Under the pieces are notes generated by a model. The model was not told where the DNA came from. It was given only the letters and a program-made list of their open reading frames with translations, and ran no database searches. DNA of 64,000 nucleotides from Karstenula rhodostoma CBS 690.94 (taxonomy: Eukaryota > Ascomycota > Dothideomycetes > Pleosporales > Didymosphaeriaceae), in assembly GCA_010093485.1 (NCBI GenBank), contig MU001497.1, positions 1,675,031 to 1,739,030 of the forward strand, written 5' to 3'. Made by a program: the position numbers and the translations under genes. Positions 43,993 through 46,595 of the stretch are shown here, in pieces; position 1 is the stretch's first letter; every line of letters starts with the position of its first letter.

Positions 43993-45836
43993 ATGAAATT
44001 GGTCCACGATTTTGGTCGCATGAGAAGGGAACGGGATCAGTTTCACAAAGATATCGCGAAGACCGGAAAAGAAACCGGTCCTGAAGATTTAGGAAGCATC
44101 AGGCGATATCGACGCTCCATACCTGAGCGCGGAAGTTTGAAGAGGGCTTGCTCTGATTCATGGGTGGAGGGTTGTCCGCGCTTCATTCAATCTGGTGCGC
44201 CTGGTGAACAAACATTACTGCTAGAAGGTAGGCAATACCCCAGCCGATAGCAACCCCAGTTTTGGCTTACTGTATCATAGGCGATCAGGATGTCGCAGAC
44301 GAACCATTCTCGCAGGATGGCAGCCTTGGCCTCAGCCGACATCGACTTTGCAGATCATCCTCCGTCGTAACCCTCGAGCAGTATCATCTCTTAAGCAAAT
44401 ATCCTTGTGCTCAAAAGAAGAGGTTCCCATACGCTGTGCAATTCCTCCGCGCATCTCTTGACGACTGCGATGAAGTCACTCGTACTTGCATTCTCGGTGA
44501 CTTTCGCACTACCCCTCTCTGGGATCCACTCAATTGCCAAACTGGTCCTTCTGAAGAGAAGGAAAAACTACAATACGTGGATATTCTGGCATGGTACCAG
44601 GCGCAGGTCTTCGATGCTTACTTGGGAATACCACAGAGCGATCTTTTCCCGCGTCCCTACGTTACTTTCGAGCACGAGAGTGGAAATTCAAGTCATCTGT
44701 CTGTTTCAAGCTCATCGAGCTCAGGCAGCGGGACATGGGAGCGGGTGAGCACTGGGTTCTACGTTCGGAGAGAGCGACGCAGTTCACTACCGCTGCCGAC
44801 TGGACGAAGTGATTACTAGGGGGAATCCAAACAATCGGTCCCGCCGAAGCAAACGGGCTCCAGCTCTTCCCATCGACGGACTGTTTCCACTCCAGCAATT
44901 ACCAATTCCGATCAGGATCCGCACGCGACGAAGATCGTCAAGGGCGGACATGGGGACGCCATGCTGGCTGACCCGCTGCCTCATGGGCCCGTCAAAATGA
45001 ATATTGCAGATGCGTTCGCGGAGAGAATTAAGTCTGAGAGGCGGGATAGTTTCCTCGCTCATACGAACGACGAGAGCATTGCAGTGCGAGTAAGCGAACA
45101 TATATCTCGTTTTGAGCGTTTGTCAGCCCCGCCGGAACGGCCCGTCAACAACCCTGCCATCATCAAGCCGAGGACGGTAGGAGCGGATACGTCAAGTTCT
45201 TCCTGCGAGGAGAGCAGCGAGGAGAGCAGTGAGGAGGATGAAGACGCTCGTGTTTTGCGGACATGGCTGACTGAATGGGACTTCACGAAGCAGACTGTTG
45301 CGGCGCCGGTACTGAAATCTCAGCTCCCGGATCCGGAGGCCTTTGCAAGGTTTGAGGAGGGGGTGGGCGGGGAGACGCAGAGTGTGGTGGAGGCGGTGGT
45401 TGACGTGGGGAATGGGAGGAGTGTGGTGGGGAGGTTGGAGAGACCGACGGTGCCGGCTGTTCCGCAGTCGTCGGTGGTTACGCGGGGTGCGGAGGCTACG
45501 CAGACTACACAGACTACGGAGCCTACGGAGAATACGCAAGATACCGAGGCTACGCAGACTGCGCAAGATACGGAGCCTACACAAACTACGGAGCCTACGC
45601 AGGGTGCAGAGGCTACGCAGGGTGCGGAGGCTACGCGGACTACAGAGGCTACGGAGGCTACGCAGACTACGCAGACTACACAGACTACGGAGCCTACAGA
45701 GAATACGCAAGATACTGAGGCTACGCAGACTGCGCAAGATACGGAGCCTACACAGACCACGGAGCCTACGCGGACCACGGAGCCTACACAAACTACAGAG
45801 ACTACGCAGACCCAAGGGCCGGGACTTGGTCTTTAA
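43993..45836 (+). CDS. Unrecognised protein with Thr/Gln/Glu/Pro repeat tail
   Basis: I do not recognise it. Three exons fit: 43993-44227, 44281-44744 and 44820-45836, totalling 1,716 nt (571 aa). The second intron ends with the in-frame triplet TAG, which otherwise looks like a stop. The first 250 residues are polar, with KLVHDFGRMRRERDQFHKD, YAVQFLRASLDDCDEVTRT, FRTTPLWDPLNC and LAWYQAQVFDAYLGIPQSDL. Then come a Ser-rich linker, an acidic run (CEESSEESSEEDEDA) and LRTWLTEWDFTKQT. The last 115 residues are tandem repeats of the type TQTTEPT. The frame starts 33 nt after the stop of the gene before it, in the same frame, so both may be one transcript or one gene. After the final TAA an acidic frame continues to 45956. 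Confidence 0.5.
45482..45815 (+). repeat. Coding minisatellite (Thr-Gln/Glu-Pro units)
   Basis: Degenerate 9- to 21-nt units such as ACGCAGACTACGGAGCCT are repeated throughout. On top of this, a segment of about 110 nt near 45490-45600 recurs near 45655-45765 (ENTQDTEATQTAQDTEPTQT in both), so the array also grew by a larger duplication. All unit changes keep the reading frame. Confidence 0.85.
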
Positions 45837-45956: not shown

Positions 45957-46411
45957 CGTGGATGAATCGGAGGACGATGGGGACGACGGAGGAATCAGAT
46001 TAGATCATCGATAGCGTATTTCAGCGCAGGTTCGGGTGTAGCGCTTCTCGCATAGACATAGAGTACAGCATGGAAAGCTCGAGCACGATTACCTTCGGTG
46101 TTATTTGCAATCGGGTAGGGGCAGTGTGATTGTGCTTTTGAGGAAGCGCTGTAGGTTTCTGGTTTGATATGCTTTCGAGCCTTGTGCGGTGGGAAGTTAT
46201 GACCAAGTGCCATATGTTGCGCTGAGGTGACGCAATGAACGTACCGTACTAAGCTAAGCGAGCGCACTTTTCTCGTCGAATTCCACGCGCTAGCCTAGTC
46301 CGTCCCCGCACTTCACCGCCGAATACCACACCAATTTTCCCCCTTCCCCCTGCCCTAAAACCCCCGCTATATATATGCAACGTTAAACATAATTGTCACC
46401 AAAACAAAGCA
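45957..46411. other. Spacer before the tRNA gene
   Basis: About 450 bp with no coding frame of note. A TATATATA run lies about 40 bp upstream of the tRNA start, in a position used by TFIIIB at some fungal tRNA genes. Confidence 0.4.
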
Positions 46412-46581
46412 GTCGCTTTAGCTCACTTGGGAGAGCGCCAGACTGAAGCAATCCGCCCCTCGGGGTCGGCAAACTTCGGTTCAACTCGAATATCTGGAGG
46501 TGTAAGTCAATCTGCATATGGATCGATGCATCGAACAAAAATTAATAAATTCTAGACTGTGTTCGATCCACAGAAGCGACA
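46412..46581 (+). tRNA. tRNA-Phe (GAA) with two intervening sequences
   Basis: The acceptor stem GTCGCTT (46412-46418) pairs perfectly with AAGCGAC (46574-46580), with discriminator A at 46581. The D stem is GCTC/GAGC. The anticodon stem CCAGA/TCTGG flanks the anticodon GAA at 46445-46447. The T arm is CTGTG TTCGATC CACAG (46557-46573). A normal-position intron follows G37 (46449-46491, 43 nt) and contains a CCGCCCC/GGGGTCGG hairpin and TTC able to pair with the anticodon. A second insertion of 54 nt (46502-46555) splits the variable loop. Removing both leaves a 73-nt cloverleaf with a 5-nt variable loop. The A box (TAGCTCACTTGG) and B box (TTCGATCC) are present but about 100 bp farther apart than usual. 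Position 15 is C, unusual for a tRNA. Confidence 0.85.
46502..46555 (+). other. Variable-loop insertion with GTAAGT...CTAG ends
   Basis: A 54-nt AT-rich segment between AGGT and A-CTGTG of the tRNA. It starts GTAAGT and ends TTCTAG, with TTAATA about 12 nt before the end, so it looks like a small spliceosomal intron. It also holds a palindrome (CGATGCATCG). Shifting the borders by one base (46503-46556) would leave G at position 48 opposite C15, restoring a Levitt-type pair, so the exact borders are open. Confidence 0.6.
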
Positions 46582-46588
46582 TCTGTTC

Positions 46589-46595
46589 TTTTTTT
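46589..46595 (+). terminator. RNA polymerase III terminator
   Basis: A run of seven T starting eight bases after the discriminator base of the tRNA, a standard pol III stop signal. It supports transcription across both insertions. Confidence 0.75.

Follow-up and report, generated by a model that had tools for sequence, protein, structure and literature searches.

The question raised by the tRNA-Phe(GAA) gene at positions 46412..46581 of the window (the whole stretch of DNA analysed here, 64,000 nt, C6:1675031-1739030 of one assembly, that of Karstenula rhodostoma CBS 690.94, an ascomycete of the family Didymosphaeriaceae in the Pleosporales; 44.3 Mb in 29 contigs) is how a tRNA gene that is interrupted twice, the second time by an insert with the appearance of an mRNA intron, could yield a tRNA. 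The first-pass annotation of this DNA had placed here a tRNA-Phe(GAA) with an intron at 37/38 and a second insert at exactly 46502-46555, and these coordinates are confirmed. All elements of the locus lie on the plus strand, and the gene consists of a mature tRNA of 73 nt plus 43 + 54 nt. Exon 1 (46412..46448) encodes tRNA positions 1-37 and contains the A box, TAGCTCACTTGG. It is followed by IVS1 (46449..46491), an ordinary 37/38 tRNA intron of 43 nt containing CTTC, which is complementary to positions 34-37; by exon 2 (46492..46501; positions 38-47); by IVS2 (46502..46555), an mRNA-type intron of 54 nt at 47/48; and by exon 3 (46556..46581; positions 48-73), with the B box, GTTCGATCC, at 46561-46569. 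The GTAAGT start, the TTAATA and the CTAG end previously reported for the 54-nt insert are all present, and TTAAT within it is branch-like. A TATA-like element (46368..46376) starts 44 nt upstream of the gene, and a run of seven T (46589..46595), which resembles a polymerase III terminator, begins 8 nt past it.

Removal of both introns leaves a 73-nt sequence with a minimum-free-energy fold that is a perfect cloverleaf with a variable loop of 5 nt, which bears out the earlier description of the product as a tRNA with a normal variable loop. No part of the window scores above the threshold of the Rfam tRNA model. ARAGORN, with introns allowed, reads the unspliced gene as tRNA-Ile(AAT) and, once IVS2 alone is removed, as tRNA-Phe(GAA). 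The unspliced RNA of the window copy with IVS2 (the 37/38 intron being omitted) is predicted to fold with a z-score of -2.89, the insert being paired to the T arm; this pairing, within 46502-46569, involves the stretch GGATCGATGCATCGA of IVS2. We read it as a probable accident of one copy, although it implies that some structure around IVS2 is possible in this precursor.

A search of the genome with a pattern spanning the D arm to the anticodon (up to three mismatches allowed; no match in the reversed control) provides the count of tRNA-Phe genes that the first-pass annotation had proposed: there are four, on four contigs. All four carry an insert at 47/48, of 54, 53, 51 and 50 nt, so that the insert in the window, now assigned to a defined tRNA position, is not unique to this gene. 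Three of the four (C11, C17 and C18) contain, in addition, a second mRNA-type insert at 53/54 (55, 52 and 55 nt, respectively), and the two inserts are separated by an exon of only 6 nt, ACTGTG. The site of this additional intron, IVS3, corresponds to window position 46561/46562, within the B box. The exons of the four genes are identical (72 nt compared, position 38 omitted); the inserts show pairwise identities of 42-57% at 47/48 and of 47-73% at 53/54. A TATA motif is found within 60 nt upstream of three of the genes and is absent from one. A run of at least five T follows all four tRNA-Phe genes and also five interrupted tRNA-Gly genes. No uninterrupted tRNA-Phe gene is found in the assembly: the 73-nt spliced tRNA, used as a DNA query, matches only positions 1-37, in the same four genes, and detects no copy of contiguous positions 38-73. 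A like query with tRNA-Gly did recover the uninterrupted 3' half of tRNA-Gly. Thus, the intact, insertion-free tRNA-Phe genes that had been envisaged elsewhere in the genome are not among the matches of the spliced-tRNA query.

Inserts of the same type extend to other tRNAs. Altogether, 15 mRNA-type introns are present in 12 of 91 located tRNA genes, in five tRNA families and at six positions (13/14, 25/26, 38/39, 47/48, 53/54 and 60/61), none of which is the canonical 37/38. The 91 genes comprise 81 distinct genes recognised by ARAGORN (L068 and L069 included), four Phe, five Gly and one Glu; the figure of 81 refers to the loci scanned, and a few of the isotype labels are wrong. The tRNA set of the genome is larger than 91, the Rfam search having scored 62 of 1177 candidates. 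For initiator tRNA-Met, two genes were located, one of which (L068) has a 53-nt insert at 38/39; without the insert, it is identical, letter for letter, to the uninterrupted L010. Among the three tRNA-Glu(TTC) genes located (L245, L246 and L247), only L246 is interrupted, by 51 nt at 13/14, and its exons recur without the insert in L245. The tRNA-Ala(CGC) gene L069 contains a 50-nt insert at 25/26 together with an ordinary 37/38 intron. Eight loci match tRNA-Gly(GCC); six are full-length, and five of these six have an insert of 49-52 nt at 60/61, in the T loop, the only uninterrupted full-length gene found being L093 (also L060).

The tRNA-Gly(GCC) family also includes fragments. L249 (C7:227180-227420) and L250 (C6:746950-747210) are decayed 5' halves with altered D loops and no 3' half seen in the stretch examined, and were left out of the gene count; one decayed half lies approximately 210 bases from the only uninterrupted tRNA-Gly(GCC) gene found. 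An extra uninterrupted 3' piece of tRNA-Gly, GTTCGATTCCCGGCCGATGCA (L095), is located a few dozen bases downstream of the interrupted gene at C7:935628.

Comparison with insert-free paralogs reveals the empty site of an exact insertion for the Gly, Met and Glu inserts and for Phe 53/54, which makes four positions out of six; searches yielded no such paralog for Phe 47/48 or Ala 25/26, and at these two sites the boundaries were set by tRNA structure. The boundaries of the Gly, Met and Glu inserts cannot slide and coincide with GT...AG, and that of Phe 53/54 slides by one base. With the inserts removed, ARAGORN assigns the expected isotype to all 12 interrupted genes; unspliced, to one. An anticodon-loop intron is recognised in 62 of the 81 ARAGORN genes (about three quarters), the mRNA-type introns of Met and Ala included. 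These genes provide an internal control, in that GTRAG(C/T) occurs in only L068 and L069 among the 62; the introns of the remaining 60 have lengths of 6-38 nt. Genes for tRNA-His, tRNA-Arg(ACG) and tRNA-Leu(AAG) were not located, the dedicated search having covered His alone; they may be interrupted or simply missed, so that the count of interrupted genes may be too low. An interrupted tRNA-Asp was sought since Asp seemed to be missing; five tRNA-Asp genes were found, all ordinary.

The inserts share a uniform set of signals. Each of the 15 starts with a GTRAG(T/C) donor (14 GTRAGT and one GTAAGC; 0.0006 per insert in shuffled sequences), ends with a YAG acceptor (0.028 per insert), is 49-55 nt long and contains a branch motif YTRAY with the A 9-11 nt from the 3' end (0.033 in shuffles, or 0.039 when the ends are kept). 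The weakest branch motif, TTAAT, is common to the window copy and one Gly copy. The insert in the window was nominated through its splice motifs; those of Gly, Met, Ala and Glu were encountered as interrupted tRNAs, independently of the motifs. For comparison with mRNA introns of the host, six candidates were picked for GTAAGT and examined for an open frame upon removal. Five of the six yield an open frame and are 47-65 nt long; their branch-like motifs are CTAAC, CTAAC, CTGAC, CTCAC and CTGAC, with the A at a distance of 9-11 nt from the end. The sixth candidate, L112, gives no open frame and was dropped. Two of the five test little, as three frames of L114 and two of L115 are open. The intron of the annotated protein P0001 (39895-39950; 56 nt, GTATGT...CAG) has CTGAT with the A 16 nt from the end; of 13 introns derived from window ORFs, a noisy set, eight contain a good motif, with distances of 10-17 nt. 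By this small and partly weak comparison, the inserts resemble mRNA introns of the host, with branch distances that are among the shortest observed. The original view of the window insert as an mRNA-type intron is thus supported both by its splice-site and branch signals and by its likeness to host introns.

These observations are best compatible with the hypothesis that the inserts are U2-type GT-AG spliceosomal introns residing in nuclear tRNA genes and that the supply of tRNA-Phe depends on the spliceosome; we assign this interpretation a probability of roughly 0.87. The structural claim for the inserts is strong, and from it we infer the mechanism, namely transcription by polymerase III, spliceosomal removal, the order of the steps and the dependence of tRNA-Phe on splicing. 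The gene structures, the splice signals, the empty-site paralogs, the identical exons and the finding of no uninterrupted tRNA-Phe in the assembly can be read off the DNA itself. Under this hypothesis, RNA polymerase III would transcribe each gene with the insert included, and the spliceosome, which would recognise a GTRAGT donor, a branch site resembling CTAAC/CTAAT and a YAG acceptor, would excise an intron of 49-55 nt. In three tRNA-Phe genes, two such removals would take place, with the 6-nt exon ACTGTG retained between them. The two removals would have to be sequential or carefully coupled because joining of the 47/48 donor to the 53/54 acceptor deletes one strand of the T stem; an internal exon of 6 nt is very short for the spliceosome, which is a point against the proposed scheme.

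The ordinary 37/38 intron of tRNA-Phe would be cut by the tRNA endonuclease. The endonuclease, RNase P and tRNase Z all read the folded tRNA body. Since the endonuclease measures from this body, the spliceosome probably acts first in tRNA-Phe, and removal of the 37/38 intron and end trimming would follow. A ruler model for the tRNA endonuclease is given in PMC4090602. It appears probable that the spliceosome is an obligatory tRNA-processing enzyme in this fungus. It would have to process the entire tRNA-Phe pool, together with some of the Gly, initiator Met, Ala and Glu tRNAs; tRNA-Phe would undergo this step before the tRNA endonuclease can act and in many cases two times, on either side of a 6-nt exon. 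Translation capacity would then be directly coupled to mRNA splicing.

Three of the six insertion sites fall within internal promoter elements, the A box in the case of Glu 13/14 and the B box in those of Phe 53/54 and Gly 60/61, so that transcription of these genes might be weak. The placement of some inserts within A- or B-box sequence would fit a different origin of the precursors, whereby the spliceosome does remove the inserts, but the functional transcripts are made by RNA polymerase II or are parts of longer transcripts rather than products of polymerase III. We consider this unlikely, given that the four Phe genes and five Gly genes are each closely followed by a run of at least five T. 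Furthermore, TTTT is found in none of the 15 introns, against 2.5 expected, which points in the same direction without being significant (P = 0.065), and at Phe 53/54 the terminal AG of the intron places a G before TTCGATCC, so that the core of the B box is kept. For transcription by polymerase III of the Glu gene, in which the insert splits the A box, an upstream TATA-like element may help.

As to the enzyme, the first-pass annotation named both the spliceosome and the tRNA endonuclease as candidates. It is quite improbable that the inserts are non-canonical tRNA introns that the Sen complex and a ligase remove, as in the bulge-helix-bulge-directed processing of Cyanidioschyzon merolae. Precedents for such an arrangement do exist: PMC4090602 describes single tRNA genes, tRNA-Phe included, that are interrupted two or three times at unusual sites in the nucleomorph of Guillardia theta, where one tRNA-Phe gene has two non-canonical introns, and similarly in C. 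merolae; an ordinary 37/38 intron is also present in the tRNA-Phe genes of K. rhodostoma. However, the introns of G. theta are 3-24 nt long and those of C. merolae are bulge-helix-bulge directed, whereas the introns of K. rhodostoma are 49-55 nt long and possess donor, branch and acceptor motifs. The 4-bp central helix of a bulge-helix-bulge, formed by the intron start and the following exon, is absent in 14 of the 15 inserts, and the single match (C18 IVS3) is incidental. The inserts folded alone are no more stable than shuffled sequences (mean z 0.10). The constant motifs and the narrow length range would be useless to an endonuclease, and the sites in the D arm, variable loop and T arm are off the position that the ruler measures. 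The Sen-complex type of intron is exemplified by IVS1 of the window gene, with its anticodon-complementary stretch, and IVS2 and IVS3 differ from such ordinary introns in position, length and signals alike. Three features therefore speak for removal by the spliceosome rather than by the endonuclease: the inserts bear splice-site and branch signals, they match host mRNA introns, and a bulge-helix-bulge is missing.

Self-splicing introns of groups I and II were considered for the window insert as well, and no Rfam family reaches its gathering score there; the weak, unrelated matches (mir-684, snoZ5 and snoR120, with E up to 10) are far under the gathering scores. For the 15 inserts in general, a self-splicing core is unlikely because 49-55 nt is too short to hold one. 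Least probable of all is an origin of the working tRNAs in uninterrupted genes, the interrupted ones being decayed or silent: unlike Phe, the Gly(GCC), initiator Met and Glu(TTC) families do include intact, insert-free copies elsewhere, and two decayed Gly 5' halves are present in the genome, but GT...AG ends with a branch motif in 15 of 15 inserts are not a product of decay, terminator-like T runs are retained, and for tRNA-Phe, which the first-pass annotation had suggested might here be a recently disabled copy, this reading is rejected because four sets of unchanged exons, combined with inserts that have diverged and yet keep their splice signals, form the pattern of working genes, with no intact copy found elsewhere.

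Spliceosomal removal of these inserts would not be the only case of mRNA-type splicing outside the transcripts of polymerase II. Spliceosomal introns in ascomycete nuclear rRNA genes, notably those of lichen fungi, were reportedly described by Bhattacharya et al. in 2000 and Cubero et al. in 2000. According to PMC8527467, spliceosomal introns are present in ascomycete rRNA genes, and yeast splices them out of transcripts made by polymerase I. This case is similar in that the introns reside in a gene class outside polymerase II, but it involves polymerase I and long exons, whereas the tRNA exons of K. rhodostoma are as short as 6 nt. In Schizosaccharomyces pombe, splicing removes an mRNA-type intron from U6 RNA, a product of polymerase III (PMC10484740); the U6 gene is comparable to the tRNA genes of K. 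rhodostoma as a polymerase III gene with a spliceosome-type intron. It differs in that U6 is itself a part of the spliceosome, with an intron thought to derive from reverse splicing near catalytic nucleotides; in K. rhodostoma, five tRNA families and six positions are affected. No precedent for spliceosomal introns in nuclear tRNA genes was found in the portions of open-licence PMC full text searched, a collection outside of which preprints and most subscription papers fall.

If spliceosomal removal of these introns is correct, the textbook division of labor, in which the spliceosome processes mRNA and a protein endonuclease processes tRNA, fails in K. rhodostoma. The four sites with insert-free paralogs would then constitute a clean system for the study of intron gain or loss, and would also be suited to the study of the splicing of very short exons in presumably uncapped transcripts and of the order of tRNA processing. 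ARAGORN misnames or misses 11 of the 12 interrupted genes, so that counts of tRNA genes in related fungi may be too low.

Searches for further cases were made with patterns. With a generic pattern for introns that precede a T loop, 76 matches are obtained in the genome versus 77 in the reversed control; three of the matches are tRNA-Phe introns (C6 IVS2, and IVS3 of C11 and C17), and six others that were inspected contain no tRNA. An exact pattern for relatives has no match in the wider collection of genome contigs. A looser pattern matches one viral contig and at least 117 stretches of the genome contigs, mostly with archaeal titles, and the five matches displayed, from six loci, are all uninterrupted tRNAs. 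Four of the loci studied in K. rhodostoma (L070, L091, L097 and L103) are very AT-rich stretches with chance matches to the A box, and resemble the outcome of repeat-induced point mutation. In the window itself, the region upstream of the tRNA-Phe gene contains an ORF (44820-45836, plus strand) with a low-complexity tail of threonine/glutamate-rich, TEPTQTTE-like repeats.
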